A stretch of DNA of 45,625 nt from Acidobacteriota bacterium (GTDB lineage Bacteria > Acidobacteriota > Holophagae > Holophagales > Holophagaceae). A program made the position numbers and the translations under genes. The DNA lies in NCBI GenBank assembly GCA_016192145.1, contig JACPUT010000012.1:1-45625 (forward strand), written 5' to 3'. Below are positions 1,193 to 31,483 of this stretch, in pieces. How positions within the stretch are numbered: position 1 is the stretch's first letter; each line of letters starts with the position of its first letter. Below the pieces are notes generated by a model. It searched no databases. It was not told the origin of the DNA and saw only the letters and a program-made list of their open reading frames with translations.

Positions 1193-2629
1193 CTACCAGC
1201 GGGTCTTCACCCGGTAGGTGAGGGTGGCCGACCCTTCGGCGGGCACTTTCACCTCGAAGCGGGCGGTGCCCGAGCTGGTCTTCTTCCAGTCCTGGCTGGC
1301 CTGCAGGATCTCCCAGTCGCCGTGGATGGGCTCGACCACGAGGACGGTGACGGCCTCCTTCTTGGCGTTCTTCAGCACCACCTCGTAAGCGCTTTCGCTG
1401 CTGCTGCCGTATTTCCCGAAGCGGCCCAGGGCCCTGTAATCCGTCTGCTTGCGGCGGGCGGTGACATCGAAGGCCTCCCCCAGCTTGAGGCGCACGGTCT
1501 CGCGCTTCGGCGTGTGGTCGATGCGATCCTCGCCGATGAATTGGGCCCGGCCCTCGCTATCGCGTTTGTACATGCGGAGGATGCCCTTGGGCAGCGGCAT
1601 GCCGAGGTGGTTGGCCTCGGTGTTGTCCAGCTCCACGAACACGCCCGCTTTCAGTTTGTCGCCGAGGTCGTTTTGGGCATTCGTGTACCACCAAGATTGC
1701 CCCTCCAGGCGGAACTCCTTGCGTACGGATACGCCACTGGCGCTGAGCAGGGCCACCTGCTTCGTCTGGTTCGCCGCCAGGGTGGTGGGTCGGTCCAGGG
1801 TGTAGAGGTGGTACTCGAAGAGGCTCTCCTCCTTCATCTCCGCCGCCTTATCCACGCCCCTGGCCAGGGCCATCATGGGGGCCGGGCGCGGCGTATCCCG
1901 CACGCGGTTCACATCCCCCGCCACCAGCTGCAAGGTGGCATTCGGATAAGCGGCGCCGCTCTGGTTGGTGAGGGTCACCCAGCCGTTGAGGTCCAGGGTC
2001 TTCTCGTCCGCACTGAGGTTGGCCACGTAGTCCGCCTTCCACCCGAGGCCGGAGGTGAGGTAGCTCAGCTCCAGGGCCTGGGCCTTCTCGGCGCCGCTGG
2101 CCAGGGTGATCACCAGCGTGGGCCGGGCCCGCAAATTGGCGGGGACCCTGGGATAGACGAGGCGCCCGGGCACGGAGGTCTCGATGCGATCGGCGAACTG
2201 CAGCACCACGCCCGAGTTGGTGGCCAGCACCGTGGCCTCCTCCCGCGCCTCCGTGCTGCCCGGCCCCGAGGCGTTGGGCTTCTGGGAGACCACCACCACC
2301 TTCTCGCCCACGTACTTCTCCAGCAGCTTCTGAGGCGTCAGCAGATCGAAGTCGAAGTTCTGCTCCACTACGAAGAATCCCTTCGGGTCCGTGAGGTTCC
2401 GCAGCAGCGCCGTCTCCGGCCGGATCTGCGCCGACACCTCCTGGAAGGCCAACCGCACTTCGCCCTTGGGCAGGCGCACCAGCCGCTGATCCTTCACCAG
2501 GGCCAGGTTGTCGTTGTAGATGGTCACGGCCAGGGCCTTCTGGTCGGTCTGGGTGGTGGGGGTCTCGCCGGGGGTTTGGCCGAGGAGGAGGGTGGGCAGG
2601 GCGGCGAGGGCGAGGGTGCGGGAGGTCAT
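1193..2629 (-). CDS. DUF4139 domain secreted protein (copy 1)
   Basis: A 478-residue protein with a signal peptide (MTSRTLALAALPTLLLGQ) followed by an all-beta region and the DUF4139 region typical of the COG5316/MuiA-like family, whose biochemical role is unknown. Recognisable stretches include YNDNLALVKDQR, SYLTSGLGWKADYVANL and YHLYTLDRPTTLA. The frame stays open upstream to 2872, but the ATG at 2629 is preferred because a ggag Shine-Dalgarno lies 6 bases before it and a signal peptide starts there. It is the downstream copy of a tandem pair; the upstream paralogue ends 92 bases before its start. Probably exported to the periplasm or cell surface. Confidence 0.85.
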   Translation of the reverse strand: MTSRTLALAALPTLLLGQTPGETPTTQTDQKALAVTIYNDNLALVKDQRLVRLPKGEVRLAFQEVSAQIRPETALLRNLTDPKGFFVVEQNFDFDLLTPQKLLEKYVGEKVVVVSQKPNASGPGSTEAREEATVLATNSGVVLQFADRIETSVPGRLVYPRVPANLRARPTLVITLASGAEKAQALELSYLTSGLGWKADYVANLSADEKTLDLNGWVTLTNQSGAAYPNATLQLVAGDVNRVRDTPRPAPMMALARGVDKAAEMKEESLFEYHLYTLDRPTTLAANQTKQVALLSASGVSVRKEFRLEGQSWWYTNAQNDLGDKLKAGVFVELDNTEANHLGMPLPKGILRMYKRDSEGRAQFIGEDRIDHTPKRETVRLKLGEAFDVTARRKQTDYRALGRFGKYGSSSESAYEVVLKNAKKEAVTVLVVEPIHGDWEILQASQDWKKTSSGTARFEVKVPAEGSATLTYRVKTRW

Positions 2630-2721: not shown

Positions 2722-4320
2722 TCAACGGCGGGGTCGCCAAGGGATGCGCACGGTGTATGAGAGTTGCTGAGTGCCATTCGAAGGAGGGGGAATGGTGAAG
2801 CGGATTTGGTTCGAGGAAGGACGCTCCGAGGGCAGGTTCGACCTGACCAGAATCCAGCCAGGTTCCATCCACTGGCGCAGCACGAGGGGCGTGGGATCAG
2901 AACTCAGATGGCGGAGGTCCACCTCCCAGGTCATTTCCACTCCCTTCCGGGACTTCCTGATATTGGCCAGTCGGCGTTGCCCGGCCCAACTACGGGCGGA
3001 GCCCGGCCAGCATTCGATGCGCTCCCCGCGACTGAGAGATTCAAAGGGCAGCGGCTCCAGGGGAATCAAGGCCCCATCCGGTCGGGCTTCCGCTAGCTGT
3101 AGCTGTCCCTCAGGCAGGGGGCGCCCCAATCCGGATGCCTCGTCATTGATCCAAGCCAACCCTGCCTGTACGTTCAATGCCTCCCACGCCAGGGCCTCAG
3201 CGGATTGGGTCTGTGCGAGGAAGGCGTGGGCCTCGGTGGTAGGAAGGTCCTCAGGGAACCCATCGTTGAAGAGATCGGCCCGATGGAGACGATTGACAGG
3301 GATTCCTTCCACTTGGAAGAGGCGAACTTGCTTCGTCTGGCCTTGGGCCAAGGTCGTGGGCCGGTCCAAGGTATAGAGGTGATAGTCCGCGAGCTTATCC
3401 TCGTCGAATGAGGGAGCCACGGTAGCAGCAGTCGTCGTGCTGGTCTTGTCCACTTGGGTCACGTCCGGGTCGCTGGGCTCGGGATCTGGATCCGGCACTA
3501 AGTTTGGATCGCCAGCCACCAATTGGAGGTGAGCTTCAGGGAATGTTTCCACGGATTCGTTGGTGAGGGTCACCAATGCTTGCAGGTCCAAGCGATCTTG
3601 GTGTGGATGATAGGTGCCGGTGTACTGGACGGACCAGGAGAGCCCGTCTGTGAGGTAGGTGAGCTGGACCTCGCCGGAGCCGCCATTCTTGACCTCCAAA
3701 GACTCCACGAGGGTCGGGGAGGCCCGAAGGCCCGGAGGCAGGGCGCGGAATGCCAGGGTTTCCGGACTCGCGGATTCAAAGCCGGCCGCGGTCTTCACCA
3801 GGACCTGAGGATCCTTTCGAACCCGGGGGACTTTGGCCCACCGTCCCCGATAGATCCGGGCTGCGCGCCACACCGCGGGCATGGGATCCAGCTTGGCCTC
3901 CAGGCGCGTTCGTGGCGGAGGGAGGATATCGGCTGGAACCGGGAGGGAAACCAGAGTTCCTTCGGCGTCAAGGCGTTCCGGCCAGGGCAAGCGCACCCAT
4001 TGACCCAGGCTGCCGTGAGCCAGGTTGGAGGGGCTCAGCAGGTTGAATTCAAAGTTCTGTTCGAGGAGCTGGACGTCCAGGGGCTTCAAGGGTTCGAACA
4101 ATGCGGTCTTGGGGCGGATCTTGGGGCTGAGGCCTGCGAAGGCCAGGCGGATGGGGCCCGGCGGCAGGTCGACCCTGCGGCGATCCCGCACCACCGCGAG
4201 GCCCTGATGGTAGAGGGTTAGGGCCAGTCCCGTGCGGTCCGTGGCCCGGGAGGTGATTTCTCCTTCGGGCTGTTGGGCCCATAAGGAGAGCACACAAGCA
4301 AGTGCGTACATCCATCGCAT
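2722..4320 (-). CDS. DUF4139 domain secreted protein (copy 2)
   Basis: A paralogue of the next gene downstream. Both contain YHLYTLDRPTTLA followed by a QTKQV box, and both have the SYLTSGLGW/TYLTDGLSW strand and the NDNLALVKDQR/HQGLAVVRDRR start of the beta region. A signal peptide (MRWMYALACVLSLWAQQ) is visible. This copy has extra sequence between the first beta region and the DUF4139 core, and its base composition is slightly less GC-rich at third positions than copy 1. A GTG three codons further up (4329) is an alternative start; neither start has a convincing Shine-Dalgarno. It probably heads a transcript running through copy 1 and the ATP-grasp gene. Function unknown. Confidence 0.82.
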   Translation of the reverse strand: MRWMYALACVLSLWAQQPEGEITSRATDRTGLALTLYHQGLAVVRDRRRVDLPPGPIRLAFAGLSPKIRPKTALFEPLKPLDVQLLEQNFEFNLLSPSNLAHGSLGQWVRLPWPERLDAEGTLVSLPVPADILPPPRTRLEAKLDPMPAVWRAARIYRGRWAKVPRVRKDPQVLVKTAAGFESASPETLAFRALPPGLRASPTLVESLEVKNGGSGEVQLTYLTDGLSWSVQYTGTYHPHQDRLDLQALVTLTNESVETFPEAHLQLVAGDPNLVPDPDPEPSDPDVTQVDKTSTTTAATVAPSFDEDKLADYHLYTLDRPTTLAQGQTKQVRLFQVEGIPVNRLHRADLFNDGFPEDLPTTEAHAFLAQTQSAEALAWEALNVQAGLAWINDEASGLGRPLPEGQLQLAEARPDGALIPLEPLPFESLSRGERIECWPGSARSWAGQRRLANIRKSRKGVEMTWEVDLRHLSSDPTPLVLRQWMEPGWILVRSNLPSERPSSNQIRFTIPPPSNGTQQLSYTVRIPWRPRR

Positions 4321-4367
4321 GATCGCCACACTATGACACGGGGCTGACCCTGCCGAGTGGTCCTGCT

Positions 4368-4455
4368 TCAGTGAAGCGTCACCACCGTGACCTCAGGCCC
4401 CCCTTGGTTCTGAGGCGCATCTTCCACGCGGCTGTTGGGGTGGTCGCGCAATGGG
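4368..4455 (-). pseudogene. Relic copy of the mutS2 3' end
   Basis: Read on the minus strand this segment encodes LRDHPNSRVEDAPQNQGG then PEVTVVTLH and a stop at 4368-4370. The intact mutS2 ends LRGHPGITRVEDAPQNQGG then AGATVVTLR and a stop. Over the last 20 codons including the stop I count 46 of 60 bases identical. The match fades upstream of the LR pair and no start codon or rest of gene is present. Between the relic and the real mutS2 end sits the inverted element R2. It is probably a by-product of element insertion or of recombination with a diverged mutS2. Confidence 0.75.
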
Positions 4456-4476
4456 TTGAGCGGGGAGAACTGCCCA

Positions 4477-4572
4477 ACGCAGAGGCGCGGAGGCGCGGAG
4501 ACGCAGAGGAAAGCAGGGGGCGGTCTCGGAGTCGACTACCCTCTGCGCCTCCGCGTCTCTGCGCCTCTGCGT
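4477..4572. repeat. R2: inverted tandem-unit element, 8-base units
   Basis: Left arm 4477-4508 is exactly four 8-base units of consensus rCGCrGAG. Right arm 4541-4572 is exactly four units of the reverse complement. The loop is 32 bases. In register the facing units match at 8, 7, 7 and 7 of 8 positions; the differences fall at the two variable purines. It lies 28 bases downstream of the mutS2 stop and upstream of the relic mutS2 tail. Confidence 0.9.
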
Positions 4573-4600
4573 TTCGCTTTTGGGTGGAAGGCCGGGAACC

Positions 4601-7036
4601 TCAGCGCAACGTCACCACCGTAGCGCCCGCCCCGCCCTGATTTTGCGGCGCATCTTCCACCCGGGTGATGCCCGGATGCCCGCGCAGGGCTTCGCGCACG
4701 GCTGCCTTCAACCGGCCAGTGCCATGCCCGTGCACGATGCGGAGGTACTTCCGCCCGCTGGCGATGCCCGCCTCCACGAAGCGGTAGACCTCGGCGTCGA
4801 TGTCGTCGCTGGCGCGGCCGATGAGGGTGAGCTGCTGGGCGAGGTCGTCGTCGGCCTCGGCCCGCACGCGCACCTGGCCCTTGGGCTTCACGTCCATCTC
4901 CTTCCGGCCGATGGGCTCCAGCTCGCCCAGGCGGCATTCGAAGCGGCGGCCGGGGGCGGTCTCCAGGGTGACGCGGTCACCCTTGAGGACGACGACCTTG
5001 CCCTCGAGGCCGAGGCCCCGATGGCGGGCGTAGGCGCCCTCCTTCACTTCGGCGATCTTCTCGGTGGGCTTGCCACGCTTGAGCAGGGAGGCCAGCTCGG
5101 CCTCGGCGATCTGCTTCATCTGCTTCACGCGCTCGGTGGCTTCGGTGCCCGTGCGGTCGGCCTCTGGCGCGGAGGACGCGGCCTTGGCCTTCGCCTTCAA
5201 CTCCTTCACGAGGCGCTTGCCTTCGTGATCCACGAACTCCAGGGCGCGCGTGAGCTTCTCGGCGGCTTCCCGGGCGAACTTCTCCTGATCGAGGCGGAGC
5301 TTCTCCTCCCGCTGGCGGAGCTGTGTCAGATCCTTCTGGACGGCGGCTTCCCGGCGGTGGACTTCCTCCGTCTCCTCCAGGAGCCGCACGCGGTCGGCCT
5401 CCAATTCCTTGAGGAAGTCCCGCCAGTCCTTTTCCCGCTGGCCCAGGGCGCTCTCGGCCTTTTCGAGCACGGGTTCGGGCAGCCCCAGGCGGCGGGCGAT
5501 GGCCAGGGCGCGGCTCTGGCCCGGCAGGCCCACCATGAGGCGGTAGGTGGGGGCCAGCTTCTCCTCATCGAACTGCACGCTGGCGTTCTGGAAGCGCTGG
5601 TGGCGCAGGGCCCACTGGCTGATCTCGCCCAGGTGCGTGGAGCAGAGGATCCAACAGCCGCGCCGCGAGAGGGCATGCAGCACGGCCACGCCCAAGGCCG
5701 CGCCCTCCTTGGGATCCGTGCCGGTGCCGAGTTCATCCAGCAGCACGAGGCCGCCATCCTTGGCTTCCGAGAGGATCTGCTTCAAGTGCACCACGTGGGA
5801 GCTGAAGGTGGAGAGGCTGCCCACCAGGGTCTGGTGGTCGCCGATGTCGGCGTGGAGCGAGGGCAGGGGCGGCAGGCTGCTGCCGCTCTCGGCGGGGATG
5901 GGGCAGCCGCAGGCGCCCAGGGACCACAACAGGCCCACGGCCTTGAGCACCACCGTTTTGCCGCCGGTGTTGGAGCCGGAGATGACGAGGCTGGGGCGCT
6001 CCCGCTCCAGGATGAGGTTCAGGGGCACCACGGCGTGGGGCAGGGGTTCGAGGCCCATGCGCTCGCGCACCTGGGGCAGCAGCAGGGGGTGCTTGGCCTG
6101 GAGGAGGCAGAGCCGCGCGGGGGATTCCGCGGGCAGCCCGCCTTGGATCAGCGCCGCCCAGCCCAGGAGGGCGAGGGTCTCATCCACTTCCACCTGGAAG
6201 TCGGCCCAGGCGGCGAAGGCCTGGCGCTGGGCGCGCAGTTCCTCCAGCAGATCGCGGAGGAAGGCGATGACGGCCTCGCGGTACTCGGCGTCCGCCTCCA
6301 CGAAGTCATTGTTGAGGCCCACGGCCTCGTGGGGCTCCAGGAACACGGTGGCGCCGCTGCCGCTGCGATCCAGCACGAGGCCGGGCACGAGGCCGCGCTT
6401 GTCGCTGCGCACGGGCAGGCAGAAGCGGCCGTTGCGCTCCACGATGCCGGATTCCACGAAGGCCTCCGGCACCTGCCGCATGAGTTTGGCGAGCTTGGCC
6501 TGGATGGATTGGTAGGCGGAACTCCGGGCGTGGTGGAGGCTGGCGAGGCCGGGCACCTTGAGGGGATCCAGCTGGCCATCCTCCGTGAAGAAGCGGCGCA
6601 GTTTCTCGGCTATGGGAGCGGGATCCGAGAGGATGAGGGCCGTCACCTGCAGGCGGTCGATGCCCAGGTGGGTGCCGGTGGGGGCCGGGCGCTCCTGCCC
6701 TTTCTCGTCCTTGGGCCAGCCCAGATCGGCGGTGCTGCGGATGAGGGTGGCGAGGGCCTGGAGGCCTTCGCGCAACTGGCGCCAATGCTCGGGCAGCAGC
6801 CAGCCCGCCGGGCTCAGCAGCTCCCCGAAGGCCTCGTCCATGGGCATCACGGGGAAGGCCTGGGGCCGGGCGGCATGGGCGTCCCGCAGCTCCTCCTGAT
6901 GGAGGCGGCGGACGCCGGAGCGGCCATCCTCGGGCGCCATGGCCTGGATCCGTGCGCGGCCACCCCGGGTGCGGGCGAAGCCGGCCACCAAGGCGAGGAC
7001 GTCGGGGAATTCGAGGTTGGCGCGTTCTTCGTTCAT
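4601..7036 (-). CDS. mutS2: Endonuclease MutS2
   Basis: An 811-residue MutS2, the MutS paralogue that lacks the mismatch-binding domain and acts in anti-recombination and in rescue of collided ribosomes. The Walker A motif GSNTGGKT is at 354-361, Walker B GLVLLDELGTGTDP at about 429-442, a long coiled-coil stretch at about 500-610, and a C-terminal Smr nuclease domain at about 735-811 with IVHGHGTGRLKAAV. Length is normal for the family. The ATG at 7036 has no Shine-Dalgarno: the bases immediately upstream are the arm of element R3, which fills the whole interval up to the rpsU terminator. The last codons are duplicated as a relic 150 bases downstream. Confidence 0.96.
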   Translation of the reverse strand: MNEERANLEFPDVLALVAGFARTRGGRARIQAMAPEDGRSGVRRLHQEELRDAHAARPQAFPVMPMDEAFGELLSPAGWLLPEHWRQLREGLQALATLIRSTADLGWPKDEKGQERPAPTGTHLGIDRLQVTALILSDPAPIAEKLRRFFTEDGQLDPLKVPGLASLHHARSSAYQSIQAKLAKLMRQVPEAFVESGIVERNGRFCLPVRSDKRGLVPGLVLDRSGSGATVFLEPHEAVGLNNDFVEADAEYREAVIAFLRDLLEELRAQRQAFAAWADFQVEVDETLALLGWAALIQGGLPAESPARLCLLQAKHPLLLPQVRERMGLEPLPHAVVPLNLILERERPSLVISGSNTGGKTVVLKAVGLLWSLGACGCPIPAESGSSLPPLPSLHADIGDHQTLVGSLSTFSSHVVHLKQILSEAKDGGLVLLDELGTGTDPKEGAALGVAVLHALSRRGCWILCSTHLGEISQWALRHQRFQNASVQFDEEKLAPTYRLMVGLPGQSRALAIARRLGLPEPVLEKAESALGQREKDWRDFLKELEADRVRLLEETEEVHRREAAVQKDLTQLRQREEKLRLDQEKFAREAAEKLTRALEFVDHEGKRLVKELKAKAKAASSAPEADRTGTEATERVKQMKQIAEAELASLLKRGKPTEKIAEVKEGAYARHRGLGLEGKVVVLKGDRVTLETAPGRRFECRLGELEPIGRKEMDVKPKGQVRVRAEADDDLAQQLTLIGRASDDIDAEVYRFVEAGIASGRKYLRIVHGHGTGRLKAAVREALRGHPGITRVEDAPQNQGGAGATVVTLR

Positions 7037-12193: not shown

Positions 12194-12293
12194 GTCCTTG
12201 GTCCTTAGTCCTTGGTCCTTCGCTGGGTACGGCCCAGCCGGTGGGTCGGCGCGCGATCTTTTTGCCAAGGACTAAGGACCAAAGACCAAAGAC
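12194..12293. repeat. R6: inverted tandem-unit element, 7-base units
   Basis: Left arm 12194-12221 is exactly four heptamers of consensus GTCCTTN; right arm 12266-12293 is exactly four heptamers of the reverse complement (two read caaagac). The seventh base is variable, as in R3. The 44-base loop has a small gctggg/cccagc hairpin and the string ggtgggtcggcgc (12240-12252) shared with R3. It lies in the divergent gap between lepA and the response-regulator gene. Confidence 0.92.
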
Positions 12294-30050: not shown

Positions 30051-30210
30051 AGGCAGGAGATGCAGAGAAAGGCTGGTTGGGTGTCGGCTGTGGACTCCAG
30101 AATTTCTGAACGGTGCACGAGAGACCTGATGGTTAACCACAGAGGTCACAGAGGACACAGAGAACGGCTTTTCTCTGTCATGGACGTCGCCTTCAACACG
30201 GTGAATATCT

Positions 30211-30426
30211 GCGAACCACCAAGACACCAAGGGCACCAAGGTAGCTCGACCCACCCCTGCCATCCCCTTCGATGGCGGCACCGTCGGGTCATCGAGGGCC
30301 CGCCCGGTGCCGCCGTCGAAGGCAGGTCCAGCTTCGCTGGATATGGAGCCGTAGGCTCGGATGGCCTATCTGCACCACCGATCGGAACCTGCTTTCTTGG
30401 TGATCTTGGTGCCTTCGTGGTTCAAC
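30211..30426. repeat. R8 inner: inverted tandem-unit element, 8-base units
   Basis: Left arm 30211-30241 has three units of consensus acaccaag; right arm 30392-30426 has three units of the reverse complement. The 20-base string cgaaccaccaagacaccaag (30212-30231) is identical to the left arm start of R4. Its loop begins with gctcgaccca (30244-30253), a string also in the R3 loop. Confidence 0.88.
30268..30321. repeat. Innermost inverted repeat of the R8 nest
   Basis: Arms 30268-30284 (cttcgatggcggcaccg) and 30305-30321 pair at 16 of 17 positions around a 20-base loop. Pairing appears to continue outward with ctgcc/ggcag after a short bulge. It has no tandem units and may be the true core of the inner element or an older hairpin. 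Confidence 0.75.
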
Positions 30427-30499
30427 AAGGACGTTCATGCCACGTGGTGCCCTGGCGGGGCATGGGGTCAGTGCCCTCTGCTGTTGATTTCTTTTCTCA

Positions 30500-31483
30500 G
30501 TGGCCTCTGTGACCTCTGTGGTTGACCCGCTTTTCGACCTCGCCTCGCTCACCAAGCCGCTGGTGACGGCGCCGCTGGCGCTGGCCTACCTGGAGCTCGA
30601 TGCGGACCGTCGCTGGCAGCTGGGATTTCGGGATCGGCCAGAGCCTCTGACGGTGCGCCAGCTGCTCAGCCACAGCGCCGGCCTTTCGCCGTGGCGTCCC
30701 TTCACGGGCGAGCCGGTGGCGGTGCAACTCAAGAAGCCCGTGCCAACGGATCCGCTGTTGCGTCCTGCGGTCGTCGGTGGATCGACCTACTCGGATCTGG
30801 GCTACCGCCTGCTGGCGGAATTGCTGGAAGCGGAGCTGGGCCTTCCTTGGCGGGAACTGGGCGCCACGGTTTCGGGGCTGTCGCCTTCGCCCTGGCGGCC
30901 CACGCCGGTGGACTTGCCGCCGGGGAGGGATCGGGAGGCTTGGGCGCTCGCCACGGACCTTCCATTCCCGGAAGCGCATGCTGGCGAGCCCCACGATGCC
31001 AATGCCCGGGCCGGCATGATCGGCCACGCGGGCTTCGCGGCTTCCGCGCCGCAATTCGAACCCGCTCTCCGCACCTGGATCGGCGCGGGCTGGCCGAGCC
31101 GGATGGCGGTGCCCACGGCGAAGACCATGGAAGGTCAGATCTGGGGTCTGGGCCTGCAGAACGCCCAGCGAGGCCCTGGTCGGTTCGCGGAGCTCCTTAC
31201 GCGGATTCCGGAGGGCCTCGGGGGCCTGCACCTGTTGGCCGAAGGGGCGGTGGATGCGCCCTCGCCGGCGCCCATCCTCGAGGGCCCTCCCGGCGAGATG
31301 ACGGAGTGGTGGTTCCACACGGGCTACACGGGACCGCTGCTCTGCGTCCGCCCCTCGGATGGCTGCGTGGTGGCCCTCCTGATCCACCGGCTCGGGCCCG
31401 ATGGCACGCTGCTTTCGGAGGAGGCGCTCCGGGGGCGAAGGTGGGGCCTGCTGGCGCGGCTGGCTGATACCCTTTTGGGATGA
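30500..31483 (+). CDS. Serine hydrolase (class C beta-lactamase family), N-terminally truncated
   Basis: A 327-residue remnant or variant of the serine beta-lactamase-like hydrolases. The nucleophile motif SLTK is at residues 17-20, the YSD motif (Tyr-based second motif) at about 98-100 and HTGYTG (KTG-like) near 273. In relatives about 50 residues precede SxxK; here only 16 do, and the first 8 codons, starting at GTG 30500, lie in the right arm of element R8. The upstream flank of R8 does not encode the missing part. It overlaps the SpoIID-like gene by 4 bases, so it may still be translated. It may be inactive or expressed from a new start. Confidence 0.75.
   Translation: MASVTSVVDPLFDLASLTKPLVTAPLALAYLELDADRRWQLGFRDRPEPLTVRQLLSHSAGLSPWRPFTGEPVAVQLKKPVPTDPLLRPAVVGGSTYSDLGYRLLAELLEAELGLPWRELGATVSGLSPSPWRPTPVDLPPGRDREAWALATDLPFPEAHAGEPHDANARAGMIGHAGFAASAPQFEPALRTWIGAGWPSRMAVPTAKTMEGQIWGLGLQNAQRGPGRFAELLTRIPEGLGGLHLLAEGAVDAPSPAPILEGPPGEMTEWWFHTGYTGPLLCVRPSDGCVVALLIHRLGPDGTLLSEEALRGRRWGLLARLADTLLG

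Follow-up and report, generated by a model that had tools for sequence, protein, structure and literature searches.

Copy of a mutS2 gene end beyond a hairpin element in a Holophagaceae genome, and gene-end duplications at dispersed palindromes of the family

How does a complete mutS2 gene come to be followed, on the far side of a hairpin, by a second end of its own reading frame? The question is raised by the window analysed here, a stretch of 45,625 nucleotides that represents contig 11 of a 3.8-Mb genome of Holophagaceae (Acidobacteriota), in which the hairpin R2 separates the gene from a distal tail (Table 1). The encoded MutS2 contains MutS domain V and the Smr domain (Pfam MutS_V and Smr), with the Smr match extending to residue 811, and its proximal tail is consistent with those of all orthologues. 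Briefly, the mutS2 stop is followed by about 19 nt, by R2, and then by the distal tail; R2 and short spacers make up the whole interval separating the two gene ends, which contains neither an integrase gene nor cargo.

Table 1. Features at the mutS2 locus of the window
Feature	Coordinates	Strand	Description	Basis
mutS2	4601-7036	-	811 aa, complete; own end intact (proximal tail, 4601-4693)	ORF
R2 hairpin	arms within 4476-4573		inverted repeat I1; arm units CGCAGAGG	
Distal tail	4368-4457	-	second mutS2 end, in frame and stop-terminated; 5' edge adjoins R2, 3' edge precedes gene a	
Gene a	2722-4329	-	DUF4139-like paralogue, diverged; next gene after the tail copy	DUF4139 match weak, below cut-off
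Gene b	1193-2629	-	DUF4139 protein	

The two tails form a direct repeat (4368-4437 and 4601-4670) with 76% identity over 70 nt, and the distal copy reads NPLRDHPNSRVEDAPQNQGGPEVTVVTLH and stop, compared with EALRGHPGITRVEDAPQNQGGAGATVVTLR and stop in mutS2, in a confirmed frame. The first-pass annotation, which had described a diverged in-frame copy of the mutS2 tail beyond R2, was thus correct in identity, frame, and stop, with its count of 46 identical bases in 60 over 20 codons being revised to 45. In fuller translation (LRDHPNS-RVEDAPQNQGGPEVTVVTLH for the distal copy and LRGHPGITRVEDAPQNQGGAGATVVTLR for the gene), the homology covers ~30 codons up to the edge of R2, and the copy is one codon shorter. 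An alignment of one flank of R2 with the other gave a score of 38, while shuffled flanks gave a mean of 10.9 and a maximum of 16, which rules out a chance similarity of the two tails. When the last 101 residues of MutS2 were searched in 120 relatives, a second tail match beside mutS2 was found in this genome only; the same search gave no indication that the copy belongs to another gene.

As regards which of the two ends is native, an orthologue of gene b directly follows mutS2 in four genomes (G001, G006, G028, and G035), and the tail copy, standing at the former border of the gene, continues into the same conserved DUF4139 neighbourhood, here represented by genes a and b. From this synteny, it is most likely that the distal copy stands where the native mutS2 end once stood. 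Of the genomes compared, this is the only one in which gene a intervenes between mutS2 and b; the order a-b recurs in other genera away from mutS2. The only congeneric genome met in the searches, the incomplete MAG G001, has the arrangement mutS2, element, b. Armed hairpins with other unit sequences lie directly behind the mutS2 stop in G001 (locus L033) and G023 (L048), and no flanking gene-end repeat was detected at these hairpins in the loci scanned. In trees of the N- and C-terminal parts of MutS2, G000 is not separated from G001 (AU p 0.647), and the mutS2 body bears no sign of foreign origin. A replacement of the 3' half of mutS2 by Geothrix DNA, considered because the C-terminal part looked nearer to Geothrix in sliding windows, was rejected, since G001 evolves fast in this part and a clade of G000 and G001 is not rejected.

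R2 consists of two arms (4476-4509 and 4540-4573) of 34 nt each, built of 8-bp units (CGCAGAGG), 30 nt apart and 91% complementary, with family-like outer ends at ~4463 and ~4582, these boundaries being approximate because the family members were aligned by eye. Such pairs of inverted 8-bp-unit arms around a short spacer are dispersed over about 22 places in this genome. As a MITE candidate, R2 has inverted repeats, and its flanking repeat is long and diverged. A copied gene end accompanies 2 of the 22 elements; the second case, on contig C1 near 513.3 kb, lies beside a gene for an LNS2-domain protein and shows the order of LNS2 gene, stop, hairpin, and in-frame fragment of the 3' part of the gene, with 27 nt between the element and the copy. 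Similar copies, which the first-pass annotation had suggested looking for at other elements, therefore exist in this genome, but none was found at 71 R2-type elements of other genomes, and a copied gene end is not a general footprint of the family of R2. Hairpins of other unit types in a 446-kb sample likewise showed no gene-end copies, and flank scores of 64-74 at the protein level at other hairpins proved to be low-complexity artefacts. The extent of the duplication is ~107 nt at R2, measured from its approximate outer end, and ~157 nt at the LNS2 site.

Many hairpin families with tandem 7-10-bp units in inverted arms occur besides that of R2 (CGCAGAGG), with units such as CACCAAGA, GGCTCTA, GATGAACA, CGCGAATGA, and others; unit-armed hairpins are located at 171-208, 12194-12286, and 30131-30527 of the window, where one is nested inside another, and at loci L219-L238. 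Two similar sites of ~66 nt resembling integron attC were also seen at L221 (9571-9636 and 10126-10191).

An element-blind scan for close direct repeats in 1.25 Mb of this genome (targeted stretches) revealed additional copies of gene ends that are separated from their gene by a hairpin, both at 5' ends (an APC transporter gene and a manC-like gene) and at 3' ends (an HU-like gene and a superoxide dismutase gene), although the hairpin is not in contact with the copy at the superoxide dismutase site. Most of the other close direct repeats were within-gene repeats, tandem paralogues, or tRNA/terminator repeats. A palindrome, GGTATCGCC-NNN-GGCGATACGC, is common to two of these sites. In Holophagaceae at large, a 32-bp palindrome, TTCTCGGTATC-N9-GATACGCGAGAC (also written TTCTCGGTATY-N9-RATACGCGAGAC), is present in 50 of 77 genomes, a reversed control pattern giving no match, and often lies between two directly repeated copies of a gene's 5' or 3' end; no palindrome of this family was found in the window. 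Twenty-five sites were examined, all with the left copy directly against the palindrome; the distance from the palindrome to the end of the right copy is 71-80 nt at 17 of them and 126-193 nt at the other 8. Some of the pairs match almost throughout, the noncoding part included (76/78 at L397, 73/75 at L413, and 74/74 at L390), as expected of a fresh target duplication. Tandem amplification contributes too, since two or three consecutive palindromes are present at L390, L392, L394, and L410. Longer rows were also observed, with six palindromes, most at a 68-bp period, at G039:C7:98247-98621, and with periods of 103-107 bp, i.e., the palindrome plus ~75 nt, in other genomes. Where a palindrome lacks a duplication, it is often embedded in a hairpin whose arms consist of 8-bp units.

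The target genes of the palindromes, named from their translated ends, include rpsU and rpsT-, manC-, uppS-, purE-, larB-, and polA-like genes (e.g., L413:1501, L397:1501, L375:1496, L379:1496, and L369:1496, and L110, L118, and L130 for rpsU). At four 5' sites (manC, APC, and the larB- and polA-like genes; loci L369, L371, L375, and L379), the stop of the displaced copy, read as a leader frame, overlaps the start codon of the restored gene, a layout of translational coupling. The mutS2/R2 locus shares the geometry of the palindrome sites, with a truncated gene-end copy abutting the hairpin and the intact gene on the opposite side; its duplication of ~107 nt is outside the range of 71-80 nt.

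At rpsU, in other Holophagaceae, 10 of 66 loci (some of them two records of one genome) are filled and the rest are plain rpsU. Filled loci show the order of rpsU stop, about 28 nt, a related palindrome, an in-frame copy of the last 15 codons, and a terminator. In L118, the distal rpsU tail runs into the terminator region that lies directly after rpsU in L112, L113, and L121, so that the distal end is native and these three loci represent empty sites. The frame of the copy relative to the rpsU gene varies between loci, which speaks against simple read-through. Coding tails at rpsU can be identical even where the spacer behind the proximal stop has lost its resemblance to the native downstream sequence, as in L118; identical rpsU tails alone are therefore no proof of a recent event. 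Insertion with gene-end duplication, as the first-pass annotation had proposed for mutS2, is thus supported as a real process in this family by the near-constant extent at the 25 palindrome sites and by the filled and empty rpsU sites.

The divergence between gene and copy is biased towards synonymous change. The mutS2 tails differ by 13 synonymous and 7 nonsynonymous changes over 25 codons, and the corresponding ratios are 9 to 0 for the HU-like pair, 12.8 to 6.2 for APC, and 15 to 4 for rpsU in sum. Neutral decay of the mutS2 copy would have produced about 26 nonsynonymous changes at the same synonymous number, and local duplication followed by such decay was rejected by simulation (P about 0.001-0.002) under the assumption of a copy neutral from the start and with over-diverged copies escaping notice; the same test was not significant for the LNS2 copy. 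The mostly synonymous divergence indicates that the copies did not simply decay as junk, and the displaced ends may be either translated or subject to exchange, be it with the gene itself or with alleles from relatives, translation being favoured at the 5' sites by the leader frames.

Altogether, we give about even weight to the view that the tail copy was left by a hairpin element whose insertion duplicated the end of the gene it entered. On this view, the landing point lay within mutS2, about 30 codons before the stop, and everything from there to a little beyond the stop (about 105-110 nt at mutS2) would have been duplicated, possibly by staggered cutting or repair copying. mutS2 would have retained an intact end on one side of R2, while its original end remained on the far side, still joined to the genes that natively follow it. 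The contact of the copy with both R2 and the native downstream genes, and the same anatomy at the LNS2 site, are consistent with such an insertion, as are the additional gene-end copies of the element-blind scan, the flank-duplicated palindrome sites, and the filled and empty rpsU loci; R2 may itself have made the duplication, but the rarity of copies at R2-type elements and extents exceeding the ~75 nt of the palindromes weigh against this. The bias of 13 to 7 obliges this insertion model to make an extra assumption, copy translation or allele exchange, either of which might account for the coding-like pattern of change, and the palindrome sites require the same assumption. It is instead possible, though unlikely, that a 32-bp palindrome came first, inserting with its usual duplication, and that R2 later landed in or replaced it. 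Palindromes routinely make such duplications, whereas R2-type elements rarely show them; several palindromes are physically associated with hairpins armed with 8-bp units, and rpsU, a neighbouring gene, has been hit by palindromes repeatedly in relatives. Yet the window retains no member of the palindrome family, and the nesting is seen only as a palindrome inside an armed hairpin, never the reverse.

The exchange of the tail, the other event envisaged in the first-pass annotation, would have brought in the mutS2 end of a diverged relative together with R2 by recombination through homology on one side and a hairpin joint on the other; the former native end would have remained beyond R2. The mostly synonymous differences allow such an exchange, because they resemble those between orthologues that are both functional, the third-position identity of the two tails (10/20) is within the between-genera range, and the sister arrangement in G001 also fits. 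We regard it nevertheless as rather improbable, since the mutS2 trees do not separate G000 from G001 and several palindrome-site pairs (rpsU and others) are identical with the host's own codons, pointing to local duplication. A tandem mutS2, or an imported segment of mutS2 and a, from which a deletion left the last codons of one copy, is very improbable: the unique position of gene a, its lower GC3 (0.72 vs 0.91-0.92 in its neighbours), and the occurrence of relics elsewhere, such as a degraded LNS2-domain gene with an internal deletion in G011 (C33; L212, ~2200-2330), are in its favour, but there is no tandem mutS2 in the 101 relatives with a match, and every other gene-end copy would require a separate accident with a hairpin exactly at the break.

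The recurring order of gene, hairpin, and gene-end copy suggests that small mobile hairpins settle in gene ends and duplicate them while the gene survives. A gene stays usable when the duplication covers its start or stop, which would explain why surviving sites lie at gene ends. More generally, and with somewhat less assurance than for the mutS2 footprint, we propose that Holophagaceae harbour a mobile hairpin, the 32-bp palindrome and possibly armed hairpins like R2, that inserts into gene ends with a near-constant duplication of ~75 bp, the gene being restored and the displaced copy translated or constrained as coding sequence. Its targets would be first or last codons, core genes included, with the displaced copy at gene starts forming a leader frame with the stop/start overlap. 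Hairpin repeats are common in bacteria, and their movement is mostly obscure because footprints are rare; a near-constant duplication of ~75 nt together with filled and empty sister sites gives direct access to the insertion reaction, and would account for the entry of such elements into important genes (rpsU, manC, and others) that are nonetheless not destroyed. The synonymous-biased divergence raises the separate question of whether displaced gene ends are translated.

Several known systems resemble these sites in part. Some integrative elements substitute the 3' end of the gene they target, so that the native end is displaced to the far side and a second end restores the gene; the Holophagaceae sites differ in lacking an integrase and cargo, and involve many unrelated genes and also 5' ends. 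A literature search, within mostly open papers, found no description of the 32-bp palindrome or of gene-end-duplicating palindromes, and the passages on REP and MITE elements consulted (PMC3733652, PMC3116915, PMC10969869) do not mention gene-end duplication. The REP/RAYT system is characterised by palindromes tagged GTAG or CGTC and by a RAYT transposase in the genome. The REP/REPIN palindromes, whose movement is ascribed to a transposase (RAYT, TnpAREP) acting in trans, are like the Holophagaceae palindrome short, dispersed, and placed near or inside gene ends (PMC3116915, PMC3733652, PMC8266576); the REP paper searched mentions no duplication, whereas the Holophagaceae palindrome carries gene-end duplications of ~75 nt. 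Rickettsia palindromic elements (RPE), ~150-bp palindromes inserting into genes, make in-frame fusions inside the protein (PMC10969869), whereas in Holophagaceae it is a gene end that is copied, with the intact gene being kept outside the element. Long target duplications are shared with IS1549 and IS1634 (IS1634 family), whose direct target repeats range from 8 to 514 bp, with no mechanism proposed (PMC2266710); these are full transposons of 1.5-2 kb with repeats of variable length, in contrast to a gene-free palindrome of ~32 bp or hairpin of ~120 bp, with a repeat length that is near-constant for the palindrome.
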